Assembly: GCF_029255125.1 (NCBI RefSeq)
Contig: NZ_JAPUVR010000099.1
Coordinates: 1 to 45,964, forward strand
Direction of reading: 5' to 3'
Source: Accumulibacter sp.
Lineage (GTDB): Bacteria > Pseudomonadota > Gammaproteobacteria > Burkholderiales > Rhodocyclaceae
Length of the DNA: 45,964 nucleotides
Under the pieces are notes generated by a model. That model did not search any database and had not been told where the DNA came from. It saw only the letters and a program-made list of their open reading frames with translations. The position numbers and the translations under genes were made by a program. Below, in pieces: positions 8,423-41,752 of this stretch. Every line of letters starts with the position of its first letter. Position 1 is the first letter of the stretch.

Positions 8423-9565
8423 TCAACGCGGCAGCGCCTCGAGCGCGGCGGCGTATTGGCCGGGCAGGTCAGCACAGCGGTGTACGGTGAACCCGAGATC
8501 GCGCATCAGCCCGTCCTGCAAGCCGTAGATCCAGCCATGGACGGTGAGCGGCTGGCCGCGTGCCCAGGCGTCCTGGACGACAAAGGTCTGGCAGACGTTG
8601 GCGACCTGTTCGAGGACGTTCAGTTCGCACAGGCGATCGTGCCGCCTTTCCGCCGGCAATCCATCGATCAGCGCCAGATGCTTCTCGTGCACGTCACGGA
8701 CGTGGCGCAGCCAGATGTCGACCAGGCCGGCGCGTTCGCGATTGAGCGCCGTCTTGACGCCGCCGCAGCCGTAATGGCCGACGACCATGATGTGCCTGAC
8801 CCTGAGCACGTCGACCGCGAACTGGATGACCGACAGGCAGTTGAGGTCGGTGTGCACGACGACATTGGCGACGTTGCGATGAACGAACAACTCGCCCGGC
8901 AGCAGACCGACGATTTCGTTGGCCGGAACGCGTGAGTCGGAGCAGCCGATCCACAGGTAGGCGGGCGTCTGCAACTGCGAGAGCTTGACGAAGTAGTCCG
9001 GGTTGATTTCCTGCATCCGGCTCGACCACGCACGGTTGAAGTCGAACAGGTGGAAGAGGTTCTCGTTGGCGACTTCTTCCTCGGACCAGTTCTCCAGATC
9101 GAGGGCGAGAAACATCGTTCCTTCGAGCGGCGTCTGGTAGTGCGCCGGCGTCTCCTTGAAGCCCATCTCGCGGTAGAGCTTGACGGCAAAGCGCATCGAC
9201 GGCAGCGTGTCGAGCAGCAGCTTGCGATAGCCGCTGTCCTTGGCCATTCTGATTGCCGCCAGCGTCAGGTCGCGACCGATCCCGTAGCCGCGCAGCGCCG
9301 GCTCGACGTAGAGCCGCTTCATTTCGCAGAGGCCACCGGAGAAAGGCCGAATGCCGACGCAGCCGGCCGGCCGACCGTCGAGCTCAGCGTAGTACAGGCA
9401 GCCACCGGGCGCCGAGTAGGCCCCCGGCAGCGTTGCGAGTTCCTCGTCGAAACCCTGAAAACAAAGGTCTACGCCAAGCCATGCGGCGTAGTTGCGGAAG
9501 AACTGACGCACCTGGTCGAGCGCGTCAGTGTCGTCGGGGGTGAGCGTGCGTAGGGTGGCTTTCAT
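8423..9565 (-). CDS. GNAT N-acetyltransferase fused to beta-class carbonic anhydrase
   Basis: One uninterrupted 380-residue frame encodes two domains. Residues 1 to about 157 are a GNAT acetyltransferase, with the acetyl-CoA binding loop RGYGIG at 92-97 and the helix KLYREMGFKE near 129-138. Residues from about 165 to 380 are a beta-carbonic anhydrase of Can type: it starts NLFHLFDFNRAWSSRM, and the zinc ligands and dyad are Cys208, Asp210 and Arg212 in CSDSRVPA, then His264 and Cys267 in HYGCGG. The carbonic anhydrase half is full length with all catalytic residues present. It should interconvert CO2 and bicarbonate; the acetyl acceptor of the first half is unknown. It lies between liuA and the carboxylase genes, which use bicarbonate. 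Confidence 0.92.
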   Translation of the reverse strand: MKATLRTLTPDDTDALDQVRQFFRNYAAWLGVDLCFQGFDEELATLPGAYSAPGGCLYYAELDGRPAGCVGIRPFSGGLCEMKRLYVEPALRGYGIGRDLTLAAIRMAKDSGYRKLLLDTLPSMRFAVKLYREMGFKETPAHYQTPLEGTMFLALDLENWSEEEVANENLFHLFDFNRAWSSRMQEINPDYFVKLSQLQTPAYLWIGCSDSRVPANEIVGLLPGELFVHRNVANVVVHTDLNCLSVIQFAVDVLRVRHIMVVGHYGCGGVKTALNRERAGLVDIWLRHVRDVHEKHLALIDGLPAERRHDRLCELNVLEQVANVCQTFVVQDAWARGQPLTVHGWIYGLQDGLMRDLGFTVHRCADLPGQYAAALEALPR

Positions 9566-35981: not shown

Positions 35982-36587
35982 CTATCGGGGGTTCTTTTCC
36001 TCGCCGTGCTCCCAGCCGGTCAGCATCGCTTTCAAATGCGCACCCACCGTGTCGCCGGTGGTGATCAGATAGACGTGGGCAATGAAGAAGGCCAGCATCA
36101 GAAAAGCGCCGATGGTATGCGCGAGGGCGATCGTGGCCAGATCGAAATGTTGCCCGAGGGCCGCCAGCTCGTTGTAGTAGAGATAAAGCAGTCCGGAAAT
36201 CCAGAGCAGGGGGTTGATCAGCACCTTGACCATCAGGTAGGCCTGCGCCTGCAGCGGATTGTGTTTTTGTCGGCGTGTTACCTTGAACGGGTGGGGTTCG
36301 CCGCGAAATATCCCCAACGCATAGTGCCTGAGGACCACGTCGGCATTCTTCATCGTCGGGATGTACTGGCGCCATTCGCCGGTGACGAAATGCCAGAAGA
36401 TGGCGAACACCCAGAGAATGATCAGCGCCCAGGCGGCGATGCCATGAATCTGGTGCGCCTTGGCGAAACCGAGCAGATGGTAGGTGCCGTGAATTTCGAA
36501 ACCGGTGAGCAGCATGCCAATCACCAGCAGCGCCTGCGTCCAGTGCCAGAAGCGTTCGAAGCGGGTAAAGATGTAGATACGTTCCAT
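35982..36587 (-). CDS. Cytochrome b561/hydrogenase-type membrane cytochrome b
   Basis: This 201-residue inner-membrane dihaem cytochrome b has four helices. Candidate haem ligands are His15 (FERFWHWTQALL), His45/His48 (KAHQIHGIAAW), His66 (FWHFVTG), His157 and His171 (LAHTIGAFLMLAFFIAHVYL). It resembles the b-type subunits of hydrogenases and of thiosulfate/tetrathionate redox enzymes, which exchange electrons between quinol and a periplasmic partner. It lies 16 nt after the octahaem cytochrome gene in the same operon, so it is the probable quinone-side partner of that enzyme. Confidence 0.85.
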   Translation of the reverse strand: MERIYIFTRFERFWHWTQALLVIGMLLTGFEIHGTYHLLGFAKAHQIHGIAAWALIILWVFAIFWHFVTGEWRQYIPTMKNADVVLRHYALGIFRGEPHPFKVTRRQKHNPLQAQAYLMVKVLINPLLWISGLLYLYYNELAALGQHFDLATIALAHTIGAFLMLAFFIAHVYLITTGDTVGAHLKAMLTGWEHGEEKNPR

Positions 36588-36603
36588 GAGGGTTTCCCTG
36601 AGA

Positions 36604-38223
36604 TCAGCGCGGGCGGCGCACGATGCGGATCAGGCCGTGCAGCGCGACGGCAGCCAGCGTGCCGCCGGCGACGATCCAGCCGATCAGGTTGACCAGGCGG
36701 TTGGCATCGCGCCCCGGAATGTAGACGCCGTCGATCGCGTCCAGGCGACCACCGCGGGTGTGGCATTCGCTGCAGCCGAGCGCCTTCTCTTTCGGCGCGA
36801 CCATGTGTGTGATCGGCCATGACATGTCGGTCTTGATGAAGCCCACTTTGCCCGAGAAATCGGCGCCCGCTACCTTCATGCCGGTCTCGATGGCCTTTTC
36901 CCAGCCAAAGTTTTTCCAGTACGCGGTATCGTCGTTGCCCGCGGTATGCGGCGTGACCAGCGTCTTGTTGACCGCGTCGAAGGGCTGTGCGCCGCGGAAA
37001 ACCTTCATTGGCCAGATCAGCGATTCGCCGTCTGTGGCGCTGCCGCCCAGCTTGTTGATGTGCGTCACGCCTTCGATGTTCTCGATCTTGTCGCCGAGCA
37101 GCGTGTAGCTCACCTTGCCATTGAACCAGGCGTACTCGGGGACGACGTTTTCACCCAGCGTGAAATCACCCTTCTTCGAGTCGTAGATGACGCGCCCCTT
37201 GTCGTCCTTCTTGATCATCGGCTTGCCGTCCGGCGTCAGCCGTCCGGCGGTCGACCAGTCCCAGCTCATCTTGGTAGCGACGCCGCCGCGCGCAATCGCG
37301 GGGATGTGGCAGGTCTGGCAGGCGATCTTGTCGGTATGGTGATTGAGCTTGGCCGCCATGCCTGAGTCCTTGTGCGGGCTGAGTCCGTGGCAGGCCTGGC
37401 AAGTCGCCGGATTGCTCTTGTCTTCCTTGCCGCGCATGTGGGCGCCGCCCTTGTCCTTGCCGACTGGTGTGTAACGGCTGCCGGGAACGTCGTGGCTGGC
37501 CGTCTTGTGGCAGGTGCCGCAAGTGAAGTCGAGGCCGGTGGCGTCCATGTGAACGTCGACTTCCTTGTCCGGCGAGGCGAGCGAGGAATCCATGTCGCCG
37601 TGCTTGACGCCGTCGCCGCCGCCCCCGAAGAAGTGACACGCGCCACAGGTGTCGCGACTGGTCTTGCCGACCTTCTGGGCAACCCGGCTCAGGTCGACGG
37701 CCTTGGCGATCTTGCCCGAACCGGGCGGAATCTCGACATCCTTATACGGCGGGTGCCCGGCGAGTCCGGGCAGCTTGCGGTAGCTGCCAGTGGTGTCATG
37801 GCAGACCAGGCAATCCACATTCTCTTCCGCAGTAAAGTCGAAGCTCGCGTCCTTCCAGCCGTAACCGACGTGGCAACTGGTGCAGAACGCGTAATTCGAG
37901 GGAACCGAGATGCAGAAGTTGTTGATGACGTTCTTCTTGCCCAGGCGCTGCTGGTTTTCCGGGTTGAGAAAGTCCCAGGTCCAGTGTTTGGTCCGGTGCA
38001 CCTGTTTGGCCGCTTCGGTATGGCAGCTCAGGCAGACTTTCGTCAGCTCCGGGCCCGACGCGAATTCCTGCTGCAATTCTTTGTATTTGCTATGGTCGGC
38101 CGTCGAATCCAGCCGTACTGGTGGGGGCTCGCTGGCCAAGGCGCTGCCGCCGACAAGCAGCGCGGCGAGCAGCAGGCCGCCCGACCACTCCGTGGCGATT
38201 CTCCGAAGAATTCTGGCGCTCAT
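36604..38223 (-). CDS. Octahaem c-type cytochrome, tetrathionate reductase (OTR) family
   Basis: This 539-residue protein has exactly eight CxxCH haem sites, starting at Cys64, 114, 138, 193, 235, 275, 302 and 484. A signal sequence ends near Ala30 (ALA|SE), and a C-terminal helix at about 510-532 (LVNLIGWIVAGGTLAAVALHGLI) should anchor it with the haem domain in the periplasm. NNFCISVPSNYAFCTSCHVGYGW and DCLVCHDTTGSYRK are typical of OTR, whose Shewanella member reduces tetrathionate, nitrite and hydroxylamine in vitro. I choose ATG 38223, preceded by GAGGAA, over an upstream ATG at 38295 that would overlap the rhodanese gene. The natural substrate is uncertain. Confidence 0.93.
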   Translation of the reverse strand: MSARILRRIATEWSGGLLLAALLVGGSALASEPPPVRLDSTADHSKYKELQQEFASGPELTKVCLSCHTEAAKQVHRTKHWTWDFLNPENQQRLGKKNVINNFCISVPSNYAFCTSCHVGYGWKDASFDFTAEENVDCLVCHDTTGSYRKLPGLAGHPPYKDVEIPPGSGKIAKAVDLSRVAQKVGKTSRDTCGACHFFGGGGDGVKHGDMDSSLASPDKEVDVHMDATGLDFTCGTCHKTASHDVPGSRYTPVGKDKGGAHMRGKEDKSNPATCQACHGLSPHKDSGMAAKLNHHTDKIACQTCHIPAIARGGVATKMSWDWSTAGRLTPDGKPMIKKDDKGRVIYDSKKGDFTLGENVVPEYAWFNGKVSYTLLGDKIENIEGVTHINKLGGSATDGESLIWPMKVFRGAQPFDAVNKTLVTPHTAGNDDTAYWKNFGWEKAIETGMKVAGADFSGKVGFIKTDMSWPITHMVAPKEKALGCSECHTRGGRLDAIDGVYIPGRDANRLVNLIGWIVAGGTLAAVALHGLIRIVRRPR

Positions 38224-38252
38224 GTCTTCCTCGCGTAGGTCGGTGAGCCGAA

Positions 38253-39398
38253 CTATTTCGTTTCGGCAATCCGGTAGCTGCCATCCTTGCTCCATTTGGT
38301 CTCGGCATCAAGGAAGTAGGTCTTCAGCGAAGGTTTGTACAGCTTGGCCATGTCGTGCGCCTCGCCGCTACGCGCGCTGGTTCCGCAGAAGAAGACAATG
38401 GGCTTGTCGGTGGGCAACTCGTCGATCCGCTTCTCCAGCGTGTTGATCGGGAAATTGACCGCACCCTTGAAGGTTCCGCTGGCATATTCGGCGGGTTCGC
38501 GCACATCGATCAAGTGGATGGTCGTCGGCGCTTCCTTGTAGATTCGTTCGAACGAGGCGAGGCTGATCGTGCCACTTTCCTTGCCTGGCTGGATCGTCGG
38601 AGCAGATGCCGTGGCGGCGGTTTCGGTGCTGGGTCCGGGGCCGTACAGTTTTTCCCAGGCGGGATAGCCCTCAGGCACCACCTTGACCGCGGTGTAGCCC
38701 AGCTTGACCGCCTTGGCGGCCGAGTCCGAACTCAGCTTGCAGCTCAGCCCTTCGCAGTAGAAGTAGAGTGGGGCAGCCTTGTCGGCCGGCAGGCGGTCGA
38801 CCAGCTTGTCGAACTGCAGGTCAGGAATGCTGATTGCGCCAGGAATGTGGCCCTTGTCGAACTTGCGCTCTTTCGGCCGCGAGTCGATCAGCGTCAGCGG
38901 CGCCTTGTCATCGATCAGCTTCTTGATGTACGGCACGCTGACGGCTGCAATATGGCCCTTCTTCAGCCAGTCCGGGTAACCGTCGGCATAGACCCGGATG
39001 TTGCTGTAGCCGAGCTTTTCGGCGCGGAAAGCCGAGTTGTGGCTGAGCATGCATTCCGGCCCGTCGCAATAGAAGATCAACAGGCTGCCCTTGTCCTTGG
39101 GCAATAGATCGACCAGCTTGTCGAACTGGCTGTCCGGAATGTTCAGCGCGGTCGGAATGTGCCCGGGATCGTACTTGCGCGCGGTTGGCCGCGAGTCGAC
39201 GATCAGAACGTCTTCCGGTTTGGGTAATACGGCGTACTTGGCGACGAACTCGGCATTGACCAGCTTGTGGTACCAGCCGGCCTTTGTTTGGCTGGCTGTT
39301 TCTTCGGCTGACACAGCGGCGGTCGGGAAGACGGTGGTGACGGAAAGAAGGGCGGCCAGCACGGTGGCAGCCGCGAGCGGGCGAGACGGTTTGAACAT
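38253..39398 (-). CDS. Periplasmic triple-rhodanese-domain protein
   Basis: This 381-residue protein has a signal peptide (cut near VSA31) and three rhodanese modules at about 45-148, 155-252 and 275-378. Active-loop cysteines are Cys111 (CDGPEC), Cys215 (CEGLSC) and Cys338 (CGTSAR). In modules 1 and 2 a second cysteine five residues on (C116, C220) makes a Cx4C pair that could form a disulfide or trisulfide; module 3 has a classic single-cysteine loop. Modules 1 and 2 are more alike to each other (VDSRPTARKYDPGHIP and IDSRPKERKFDKGHIP) than to 3, suggesting internal duplication. Such domains carry sulfane sulfur. It is 29 nt ahead of the octahaem gene. Confidence 0.92.
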   Translation of the reverse strand: MFKPSRPLAAATVLAALLSVTTVFPTAAVSAEETASQTKAGWYHKLVNAEFVAKYAVLPKPEDVLIVDSRPTARKYDPGHIPTALNIPDSQFDKLVDLLPKDKGSLLIFYCDGPECMLSHNSAFRAEKLGYSNIRVYADGYPDWLKKGHIAAVSVPYIKKLIDDKAPLTLIDSRPKERKFDKGHIPGAISIPDLQFDKLVDRLPADKAAPLYFYCEGLSCKLSSDSAAKAVKLGYTAVKVVPEGYPAWEKLYGPGPSTETAATASAPTIQPGKESGTISLASFERIYKEAPTTIHLIDVREPAEYASGTFKGAVNFPINTLEKRIDELPTDKPIVFFCGTSARSGEAHDMAKLYKPSLKTYFLDAETKWSKDGSYRIAETK

Positions 39399-39470
39399 GA
39401 TCTTTGGCAGATTCGAATGAACGGAATGGAGGGAATTGTCAGCAAGTGCGACCGAATCGGCAGGCGCGAC

Positions 39471-39863
39471 TCAGCTACATGTGGCGGGTGCTTCGCCGTC
39501 CTTGGCGCCCTTGATGACGAAAGCCTTGACGTCCTCGAACAGCTCGTCGTCGGCGACCTCGGCAAACTTTTCGGCTGCCTTGTTCTGGCTGCGAATGCTG
39601 GCGCGGTAGGCCTTGCTGACGTACTGCTTCATCGAATCCTTGCCCTTGGCGTGCTTGTCGGCCTGCAGGTAGCTGGCCCATTGCGCCTTGGTCATCGTGC
39701 TTGGCGCAATCGAGCCGCCCGCCTGGGCAGCATGGCAGGCGGTGCACACGCTGCGGTAATAGACCCGACCGCGCTTCCAGTCGGCGTCGTAGGCCAGGGC
39801 GAGCGACGAAAGACTAAAAAGGCCAACAGTGATTGCGCAGGCAATCGGCAAACGTTTGATCAT
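39471..39863 (-). CDS. Monohaem periplasmic cytochrome c
   Basis: This 130-residue protein has a signal peptide (cut after ALA24) and one haem site, C40-T-A-C-H44, followed by the class I-like segment GGSIAPSTMTKAQW. The C-terminal part is lysine-rich and helical, and ends GEAPATCS with a lone extra cysteine. It should shuttle electrons in the periplasm. GGAG lies eight bases ahead of the ATG. It opens the four-gene minus-strand redox operon, 72 nt before the rhodanese gene, so it may be the soluble electron carrier for the octahaem enzyme. Confidence 0.9.
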   Translation of the reverse strand: MIKRLPIACAITVGLFSLSSLALAYDADWKRGRVYYRSVCTACHAAQAGGSIAPSTMTKAQWASYLQADKHAKGKDSMKQYVSKAYRASIRSQNKAAEKFAEVADDELFEDVKAFVIKGAKDGEAPATCS

Positions 39864-40097: not shown

Positions 40098-41438
40098 CTA
40101 GACCAGCCCACGCGCCGTCGCCAGAAAGTAGCCGGCCAGGCAGGAGGTTGCCACGCCGATCAGTCCGGGAAGGATGAAGCTGTGGTTGATCAGGTACTTG
40201 CCGATATGTGTCGTACCTGAACGATCGAACTGGATGGTGGCCAGGTCGCTTGGGTAGGTGGGCAGGATGTAGTAGCCGTAGCATGCCGCGGCGAAGGCGA
40301 CGACGTAGCCCGGCGGAACGCCGATCGACAGCGCCAGCGGCACCATCGCACTGATTGCCGCTGCCTGCGAGTTGACGAACTTCGAAACGATCAACAGCGC
40401 TACCGCGTAGGTCCAGGGCTGCGTCCTGACCAGGTCGGCCAGGGCTTCCTTGATGATCGGCAGATTGGCCTCGAAAACCGAATCGGCCATCCAGGCGACG
40501 CCGAAGACGGCGACCACGGCAATCATTCCCGCCCGGAAGACTTCTGTCTTACCGATGGCTGCCGGGTTGGTCTTGGTAAACAGGATGATGAATGCGCCAG
40601 CCATCATCATGAACATCTGGATCGTCAGGACCATCGACAGTGGCTTGCCGGAGAAGCTCGGCCGCAAGGTCTCGAAGGCACCGAGGGCGGCGACGACGGC
40701 GATCGCGCCGACGAAGATCCACATCGCCACCCACTGACCGCGTTCGAGCGTCTTGCCGAGCAGCGTCGCCGTCTCGCCGTAGACGAACTTGCGGCTTTCC
40801 GGATCGGCAATCAATTTCTGGAAGGCCTCGTCCTTGTCCAGGTCCTTGCCGCGGAACCAACTGAAAATGCCGATCATCAACACCCCGACTAGCGTCGATG
40901 GGATGGTGATCGAGAGCAGCGTGACGAAGTCGAGCACCGGCGCACCGGCTGGTGCCTTGGCGAGAAACGCTGCCAGCGAGACGACCGCCACCGACACCGG
41001 ACTGGCAATGATTCCCATCTGCGAACCGATCGACGAGCCGGCCATCGGCCGTTCCGGCCGGATGCCGTTCTTGATCGCAATGTCGTAAATGATCGGCAGC
41101 ATCGTATACACGACGTGCCCGGTTCCGCAGAGGATGGTCAGGAAGGTGGTGACGAAGGGGGCAAGGATGGACACGTACTTCGGGTTTCGCCGCAGCACTT
41201 TCTCGGCCATCAGCAACAGCACCTCCAGGCCGCCGGAGGCCTGCAGCGTCGCCGATGCGGCAACGACGGCGACGATGGTCAGCATCACGTCGACCGGTGG
41301 TTTGCCGGGTGGTACGTGAAACCCGAAAACGAGAACGACGACGCCAATCCCGCCGAGCAGGCCGAGCGCCACGCCACCTTTGCGCGCGCCGTAGAACAGG
41401 CAGATGAGAATCAGCAGCAGTTCGAGAGCCAAGGTCAT
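40098..41438 (-). CDS. dcuB: Anaerobic C4-dicarboxylate transporter, DcuB family
   Basis: This 446-residue inner-membrane carrier with about twelve helices starts [40 protein letters not shown], the Dcu signature. [40 protein letters not shown] and the [34 protein letters not shown] end are typical of DcuA/DcuB antiporters. Family members exchange fumarate, malate or aspartate for succinate during anaerobic growth. I use ATG 41438, preceded by GAGG; the frame extends to 41522 but that part lacks similarity. It lies 234 nt upstream of the cytochrome c gene and has its own promoter. Confidence 0.93.
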
Positions 41439-41752
41439 GATGGGGCCTCTTTCGCAGTGTCGGGAACTACATGAACGGTGGAAGCTGTCGGTTTGCCGGC
41501 GGAGTATATGAGTCTGTGTCAAGGCGGGTCAATCCCGGCTTTTCCCTGCTTTGCCCTTGGCCGGCGGTGCACGCGGGCGAAAATTGCGTCGGTGGTTGCC
41601 CCAATGGTCCGCCTGGCTGTCGGATAACAGCGGCCCGCGCACTGCCCAACGACGCGCACCGGCCTGTTCCTGCACGGGTAGACTTCGCCGCCCGCCAAGA
41701 CCTGGGGCAAGCGCTTGCATCTGCGTCGCTCCATGGTGCCAATCGGGTTAAG
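41439..41752. other. Divergent dcuB-moxR gap
   Basis: This 314-nt stretch contains the dcuB promoter near its left end and no convincing gene. The moxR frame is open through all of it, but the translation is cysteine- and arginine-rich and shows no AAA-family similarity. No strong promoter for moxR is visible. Confidence 0.5.
41503..41532 (-). promoter_or_regulatory. Sigma70 promoter for dcuB
   Basis: On the minus strand, TTGACC (complement of 41527-41532) and TATACT (complement of 41503-41508) match the -35 and -10 hexamers at five of six positions each, 18 bp apart. They lie 65 nt ahead of the dcuB ATG, giving a leader near 58 nt. No obvious FNR box overlaps. Confidence 0.55.

Follow-up and report, generated by a model that had tools for sequence, protein, structure and literature searches.

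What does an octahaem cytochrome c of the OTR family do when its gene stands between those of a secreted triple rhodanese and a membrane cytochrome b? The question is raised by four genes in the window, by which we mean the whole analysed stretch of 45,964 nucleotides from Accumulibacter sp. (Rhodocyclaceae; assembly GCF_029255125.1, contig NZ_JAPUVR010000099.1), and which are named here as follows, from upstream to downstream.

39471..39863, minus strand: CYC, secreted monohaem cytochrome c of 130 residues with one CxxCH site; PF13442, 27.8 bits (cut-off 27)
38253..39398, minus strand: RHO, secreted protein of 381 residues with three rhodanese domains; PF00581 in three stretches
36604..38223, minus strand: OTR, octahaem cytochrome c (tetrathionate reductase family) of 539 residues counted from the ATG at 38223, with a C-terminal membrane anchor
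35982..36587, minus strand: CYB, a b561/thiosulfate-reductase-b type of membrane cytochrome b, 201 residues; PF01292, 79.2 bits (cut-off 30.1)

Our answer, to which we assign a probability of roughly 0.5, is that the operon encodes a redox module of the periplasm that handles sulfane sulfur bound to cysteines of proteins, and we infer its carrier role, substrate and direction from the genes and their relatives. A partnership recurring in related bacteria indicates sulfur rather than nitrogen chemistry, and the residues through which sulfur would pass are conserved in both RHO and CYC.

The initial annotation had described four minus-strand genes for a monohaem cytochrome c, a triple rhodanese, an OTR with eight CxxCH sites and a cytochrome b, with intergenic gaps of 72, 29 and 16 nt; the coordinates and gaps were borne out, as were the four identities by family scores and motif count, whereas signal peptides and the OTR anchor were judged by eye. 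A simple scan detected no promoter-like site within the cluster and a single terminator-like hairpin on the gene strand, located within the CYB gene, with counts about equal to those of shuffled sequence. From the spacing, the four genes probably form one transcript. When other genomes were searched for the four-gene order, as that annotation had proposed, CYC-RHO-OTR-CYB was found again in loci L002-L008, L010, L011 and L028, which include Accumulibacter, Dechloromonas, Azonexus and Aromatoleum/Azoarcus, and since the same set of genes recurs there in unchanged order, the arrangement is not a product of chance.

To place the cluster among its relatives, neighbouring families were scored with family hidden Markov models (HMMs) within 4 kb of OTR, in the best 80 of 206 related OTR loci; 34 of the 80, short of 4 kb on one side, do not enter the full-flank counts, for which at least 4 kb is present on both sides. 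CYB accompanies OTR in 70 of the 80 loci and in 46/46 with full flanks, CYC in 42, RHO in 33, a YeeE/YedE-type transporter (YEE) in 25 and a DsrE-like protein in 6. Every RHO is accompanied by CYC (33/33), as is every YEE (25/25), and the sole CYC with neither RHO nor YEE, that of L050, lies at a contig end. Two types of order prevail, the CYC-RHO-OTR-CYB of the window, Accumulibacter, Dechloromonas, Azonexus and Aromatoleum, and an OTR-CYB-CYC-YEE-RHO(-DsrE) order, which also occurs partial or rearranged; L003 and L004 read YEE-DsrE-CYC-RHO-OTR-CYB. The one YEE member scanned (L003) scores 150 bits against PF04143 (cut-off 27), 102.8 bits against TsuA (cut-off 400) and below the YedE cut-off too, while the DsrE-like protein reaches 16.9 bits against a Pfam cut-off of 22.7, so its name is tentative.

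Two genome samples extend these counts, both from searches that score first candidates only and may miss weak homologues. Among 300 genomes drawn evenly from the order, OTR exceeds its cut-off in 27, RHO is found in 9 (E up to 1e-20) and CYC in 9 (E up to 1e-15), and all nine RHO genomes and all nine CYC genomes fall among the 27 with OTR, an overlap with a nominal hypergeometric value of 1e-10, which is no true probability because the genomes are related. RHO lies within about 3 kb of OTR in six of its nine genomes, on another contig in two, and is distant and partial in one; CYC lies within about 3 kb in eight and on another contig in one. The phylum sample of 398 genomes gave OTR over cut-off in 45, with 54 places over cut-off, of which 51 were fetched (the partial OTRs of G339 and G282 and the window's own were omitted); five genomes have RHO-family matches, all together with OTR and four near it. 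Most OTR loci of this sample have neither CYC nor RHO, and in its 35 full-flank loci CYB is near OTR in 31 and RHO in 2, plus one looser triple rhodanese (L145). Thus, OTR and CYB are the core pair in the 80 relatives and in the phylum sample.

These counts bear on two claims of the initial annotation. It had named rare adjacency of the rhodanese and OTR genes as grounds for abandoning its proposal, and the result depends on the side from which it is viewed: from OTR adjacency is rare (2/35), whereas from RHO it is the rule (6/9). The proposal itself was a pathway for thiosulfate, tetrathionate or polysulfide. Sulfur stands as the best reading, because the genomes with RHO all carry OTR (9/9 in the order, 5/5 in the phylum) and because relatives have sulfur or thiol neighbours (YeeE/YedE, DsrE-like proteins, TlpA/redoxin and small proteins with terminal cysteines); the substrate, the direction and a passing of sulfur at the haem are putative.

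Rhodaneses also adjoin OTR outside the clade in which RHO is concentrated, in L145 (triple) and L118 (single). In L118 (G197), the single rhodanese, OTR and CYB lie beside genes for a DsrE-like protein and for Blh/SDO-like and SQR-like proteins, which score 558 and 184 bits under cut-offs of 625 and 525 respectively, and this neighbourhood is a sulfide-oxidation setting. L111 and L114 have a gene of about 262 codons ahead of OTR-CYB, by eye like a SAM (S-adenosylmethionine) hydrolase/halogenase family protein.

How far the partnership follows the descent of OTR was read from a quick tree of 137 OTR sequences, from which rows below 420 residues, the duplicates L162, L163 and L166 and the short L082-L110 were omitted. 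Of the 39 RHO rows, 38 fall in a single 60-row clade (Shimodaira-Hasegawa-like approximate likelihood ratio test, SH-aLRT, 94, not starred), together with all ten rows that have YEE but no RHO, one row with a looser rhodanese and 11 loci too short to judge; none of the 46 full-flank rows without the module belongs to it. The 39th RHO row is a second OTR of L013, which shares the RHO of that locus. Parsimony requires three changes for the module, taken as RHO or YEE, and eight for RHO alone. The module thus marks one OTR subfamily, whose members are mostly Betaproteobacteria, plus Magnetospirillum (L024, L027) and a few labelled Gammaproteobacteria.

Which residues could handle the sulfur? In RHO, conservation was read from a 29-row alignment, in which the three active loops stand out.

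39051..39068, minus strand: RHO domain 1 active loop, C111-x4-C116; both cysteines in 29/29 rows
38739..38756, minus strand: RHO domain 2 active loop, C215-x4-C220; both cysteines in 29/29 rows
38370..38387, minus strand: RHO domain 3 loop, C338-x4-R343, the ordinary rhodanese type; both residues in 29/29 rows

The ordinary six-residue rhodanese loop is C-x4-R, and the five residues C111, C116, C215, C220 and C338 are the sole cysteines of the window protein. RHO is a rhodanese by its PF00581 score (156.7 bits, cut-off 22.2), and its AlphaFold2 model (mean predicted local distance difference test, pLDDT, 88.2; predicted template modelling score, pTM, 0.59) matches rhodanese structures in the PDB. 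An arrangement with the three loops facing each other was considered and set aside, as this pTM leaves domain placement unsettled and whole-chain PDB matches reach a query TM (template modelling) score of about 0.16-0.27. The best-scoring NCBIfam model is TsoB (NF045694), at 125.3 bits far below its cut-off of 805, so RHO resembles TsoB without belonging to it. In TsoB, the rhodanese selenoprotein of the Tso operon, UxxxxU is listed (PMC13188914; this and the other articles cited by PMC number are used for the portions of their text available to us), so that redox residues stand four apart in rhodanese loops of both proteins; unlike TsoB, RHO has cysteine in place of selenocysteine, and rhodanese domains, with no DsbD part, are all that was found in it.

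A second candidate for handling sulfur lies at the end of CYC.

39477..39479, minus strand: codon of CYC Cys129, with one further codon between it and the stop

Cys129 holds this penultimate position in 42/42 rows (the CYC of L050, cut by the contig end, is not counted), within the tail pattern KDGxxPAxC-x, and His71 is likewise invariant (42/42). Apart from M1, no methionine is present in at least 90% of rows, and the want of a conserved methionine ligand, together with His71, hints at a low-potential haem. In 25 of the 42 rows the CxxCH pair and C129 are the only cysteines. The AlphaFold2 model (pLDDT 86.4) has no secondary structure over residues 119-130, with a mean pLDDT of 88 for 121-130, and searching with its fold yielded no significant hit (best E 0.95). 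Shewanella-like monohaem proteins encoded upstream of OTR in L119, L121 and L132 are CYC homologues (53 bits each) that end in TCG, and thus the penultimate cysteine is retained in 3/3. L145, from the same class as the window's genome, encodes a 114-residue CYC-like protein without CxxCH (L145:5867-6208), whose sole cysteine is residue 113 and whose gene is flanked by that of CYB and that of a triple rhodanese in which one loop is CxxxxC; its pairing with CYC has an hhalign probability of 53%, which rises to 79% once the Shewanella-like sequences are added to the profile. The initial annotation overlooked two features, the CxxxxC loops of RHO and the cysteine that is always next to last in CYC, and on their account CYC and the rhodanese are equally likely sulfur carriers.

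The neighbouring 30-row clade of the tree (SH-aLRT 95) has neither CYC nor RHO within 4 kb in any of its 17 full-flank rows, save for the second copy of L013, and in 29 of its 30 rows our own HMM finds a DUF302-type protein directly upstream of OTR; the thirtieth row is that second OTR of L013, with its flank cut. The protein, membrane-anchored by eye and assigned to DUF302 by a Pfam scan of the L035 member (L035:5157-5750), has a glycine-rich tail with a cysteine at its end in 29/29, a tail with the look of a sulfur-carrier arm of a new type. TlpA/ResA-like proteins, of which the L064 member was scanned, are encoded near OTR in ten loci of this DUF302 clade (8/10 on the OTR strand) and in one locus elsewhere. 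More broadly, genes of 70-260 codons with a cysteine in the last two positions are enriched close to OTR on its own strand (50/219 within 2.5 kb, 3/150 beyond 3.5 kb; Fisher 2e-9), the corresponding counts on the opposite strand being 5/109 and 5/122; because families recur and some frames are probably not genes, this count is descriptive only. A partner with a terminal cysteine as a universal companion of OTR is ruled out, since 27 of the 35 full-flank phylum loci have none of the families found, the remainder comprising six with a CYC-type protein, one with a DUF302 tail protein and one with the haem-less protein of L145.

At the centre of the proposed module stands OTR itself, in which two residues deserve attention.

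37912..37914, minus strand: codon of OTR Cys104, aligned to Cys64 of Shewanella oneidensis OTR; kept in 136/137 OTR rows
37603..37605, minus strand: codon of OTR Lys207, aligned to Lys153 of S. oneidensis OTR; kept in 137/137 OTR rows

The window protein scores 632.1 bits against TIGR04315 (cut-off 375), covers model positions 1-440 of 440, has exactly eight CxxCH haem sites and aligns over residues 50-495 to PDB 1SP3, the solved Shewanella enzyme (E 9.5e-112); its closest named relative, at 91% identity, comes from an Accumulibacter metagenome-assembled genome (L002). According to the 2004 structure paper on S. oneidensis OTR, Lys153 reportedly ligates the catalytic haem and Cys64 stands beside it, and we take the unusual haem ligand to be the lysine, not the cysteine. 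We know of no settled natural substrate of OTR, and the open-access literature searched gave no account of what Cys64 does beside the haem. Haem II is named as the catalytic haem of this enzyme, which in vitro reduces nitrite and hydroxylamine and binds a small tetrahaem cytochrome (PMC4484225), while a Beggiatoaceae OTR reduces tetrathionate at up to 93 umol per min per mg, above its nitrite activity (PMC6449678), and the Magnetospirillum gryphiswaldense homologue falls outside the HAO grouping, with a gene that shows no response to nitrogen source or oxygen (PMC12774639). The window OTR shares with 1SP3 the eight CxxCH sites and the positions of Cys64, Asp150 and Lys153, and differs in its C-terminal membrane anchor, its cytochrome b partner and its CYC and RHO. 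The OTRs that group with 1SP3 (L119, L121, L132) adjoin a CYC with a terminal cysteine, with no RHO or CYB of the present families nearby, and in L119 and L132 a DUF3373 protein is placed between CYC and OTR. DUF3373 proteins, outer-membrane porin-like by eye (L119:5173-6897, L132:8428-10137, L059:9920-11851, L075:8196-10007), recur in OTR operons and are possibly a route of substrate entry.

CYB is likely the link to quinone, cytochromes b of the b561/PhsC kind being usually quinol-linked; its closest NCBIfam model is the PhsC-type NF011582 (113.4 bits, below the cut-off of 204), and it is thus placed in PF01292 only. From these parts a working scheme can be drawn. CYB would trade electrons with the quinone pool, and OTR, whose activity is taken from its family membership, would be the membrane-anchored catalyst. 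Domains 1 and 2 of RHO may load sulfane sulfur from thiosulfate, tetrathionate or polysulfide onto the CxxxxC dithiol, which may close to a disulfide once the sulfur departs, domain 3 being an ordinary rhodanese. On its C-terminal cysteine, CYC would then bring sulfur or a sulfur-sulfonate group to the OTR haem that has the lysine ligand, and S-S bonds would be reduced there, the slightly favoured direction, or made. In relatives, the YeeE/YedE transporter and the DsrE-like protein may pass sulfur onward. Sulfur chemistry at haem 2 is favoured by the retention of the Cys64 and Lys153 positions and by the binding of thiosulfate to a haem-site cysteine in TsdA (PMC5146829).

In the window's genome, YEE gave no match at E 1e-10, the DsrE-like family no more than a 17-bit partial match, and SoxB and DsrA stayed under their cut-offs (57 of 550 and 46.6 of 392.85 bits). 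YeeE/YedE and DsrE-like proteins are therefore excluded as parts of the window system, and the module here would work alone in the periplasm. On the direction the signs are mixed: reductive OTR assays and the want of Sox or Dsr genes over cut-off here stand against the presence of OTR in several sulfur-oxidising genera.

Several observations weigh against the sulfur-carrier module. Its clearest sulfur-transport partners, YEE and the DsrE-like protein, are missing in this very genome, and nitrite and hydroxylamine are further substrates of OTR in vitro (PMC4484225). The CYC tail is modelled with fair confidence, so its mobility gains no support from the prediction; its terminal cysteine could serve other ends, such as dimer formation or docking; the haem-less protein of L145 is a weak CYC match by its profile; and the model does not fix how the RHO domains lie with respect to one another. 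As to the counts, the 80 loci, as the best of 206, are biased to near kin, the terminal-cysteine tally takes in related loci repeatedly along with probable non-gene frames, and the absence of such carriers from 27 of the 35 full-flank phylum loci shows that OTR can in general do without one.

The rival that survives best, though we consider it unlikely, keeps the same parts and runs them oxidatively: sulfide, persulfide or thiosulfate would load the CYC tail and RHO with sulfur, the OTR haem would draw off electrons to CYB and quinone, or to CYC and a terminal reductase, and tetrathionate or sulfite would be the product. Several OTR loci lie in Sulfuricella, Sulfurimicrobium, Thiobacillus and Sulfurisoma, which we take to be genera of sulfur oxidisers, and two of them, L025 and L012, have RHO and CYC. 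YeeE/YedE transporters, DsrE-like proteins and cysteine arms, all present near OTR, are common in sulfur oxidation, and the rhodanese-OTR-CYB set of L118 sits in its sulfide-oxidation neighbourhood. SoxY, whose GGCGG cysteine binds and carries sulfur (PMC6067878), is encoded with SoxZ next to otr in lucinid symbionts (PMC11237559). Against this, the window's genome has no SoxB or DsrA over cut-off, CYB is of a usually quinol-linked kind, CYC lacks a conserved methionine ligand and keeps the invariant His71 that hints at a low-potential haem, and the described OTR assays, in the texts available to us, all run as reductases.

An in vivo role for OTR in reducing nitrite, NO or hydroxylamine, with rhodanese and CYC as accessories that might protect thiols, strikes us as improbable. 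The S. oneidensis enzyme does reduce nitrite and hydroxylamine and bind a tetrahaem cytochrome (PMC4484225), and that of Beggiatoaceae is active on nitrite too, if faster on tetrathionate (PMC6449678); the M. gryphiswaldense homologue, however, is not grouped with HAO, and its gene is indifferent to nitrogen source and oxygen (PMC12774639). The gene neighbourhoods speak against it further: the 99 non-core operon neighbours from 81 loci match 128 Pfam families, led by DUF302 (13), DUF3373 (6) and response regulators (5), then histidine kinases, cytochromes c and redoxins with four each, rhodanese and Sulf_transp occurring twice each, with no nitrogen-cycle family in the 25 commonest, and rhodanese, YeeE, DsrE-like, redoxin and terminal-cysteine partners indicate sulfur. 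Least probable of all is a disulfide or persulfide stress system run on respiratory electrons, with structural or thiol-repair roles for the CYC terminal cysteine and the CxxxxC loops, to which the TlpA/ResA-like proteins of 11 loci (ten in the DUF302 clade) and the three-cysteine CYC of 25/42 rows, whose C129 has no free partner in its chain and could join two chains, would lend themselves, but the terminal or next-to-last cysteine in such unlike proteins as CYC, its haem-less kin and the DUF302 tails better fits a reaching arm than a dimer bond, and YeeE/YedE partners deal with sulfur, not disulfides.

Returning to the sulfur-carrier module, how does it compare with known systems? A cysteine at the C-terminal end is shared by the CYC and DUF302 tails with SoxYZ and DsrC. 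DsrC has two conserved cysteines in its C-terminal arm, whereas the CYC tail has C129 alone; unlike SoxY, CYC consists of cytochrome c domains only, and the DUF302 tails belong to another family than either. TsdA, a thiosulfate dehydrogenase/tetrathionate reductase, is likewise a haem enzyme that joins or splits thiosulfate and tetrathionate with a cysteine at its active haem (PMC5146829), although it has two haems and belongs to another family than OTR. As RHO stands beside OTR, a secreted triple rhodanese adjoins the sulfur reductase in the Psr operon of Desulfurivibrio dismutans (PMC12142623), and in Dethiobacter alkaliphilus rhodaneses adjoin a SirA/OTR-like octahaem cytochrome (PMC10376724). 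The enzymes differ there, being Psr in the former and, in the latter, octahaem cytochromes about 20-23% identical to OTR/SirA, and the available text on the octahaem-rhodanese cluster describes neither a CYC tail nor a YeeE module. No description of an operon that unites OTR with rhodanese genes, or of a cytochrome from such an operon that carries a terminal cysteine, was found in the available portions of the open-access literature, most subscription papers lying outside that scope.

A more specific proposal, which we put forward tentatively and consider clearly less than an even bet, is that OTR acts on sulfur presented on protein cysteine arms and not mainly on free tetrathionate or nitrite. 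CYC would then be haem protein and sulfur carrier in one, the DUF302 tail would replace it in the neighbouring clade, and OTR with its carrier would form a periplasmic counterpart of DsrAB-DsrC, fed by CxxxxC rhodaneses.

Two further features of the window lie outside the cluster. An anaerobic C4-dicarboxylate transporter (Dcu, 689 bits) is encoded at 40098-41522, likewise on the minus strand and 234 nt ahead of CYC; as no Dcu relatives at E 1e-20 were found in the OTR loci examined, it is not a fixed partner. At 8423-9565 (minus strand), near acyl-CoA dehydrogenase and carboxyl transferase genes, a GNAT acetyltransferase domain is fused to a carbonic anhydrase domain (PF00484).

For the family as a whole, the neighbourhoods of OTR yield directly testable residues, C129 of CYC and the CxxxxC loops of RHO, and they point to lineages suited to such tests. 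Should the carrier reading prove true, a widespread multihaem enzyme would shift from nitrogen or tetrathionate chemistry to the periplasmic chemistry of protein-bound sulfur, and SoxY, DsrC, TusA and the lipoate proteins would be joined by a sulfur carrier of a new type, a haem protein whose thiol is terminal.

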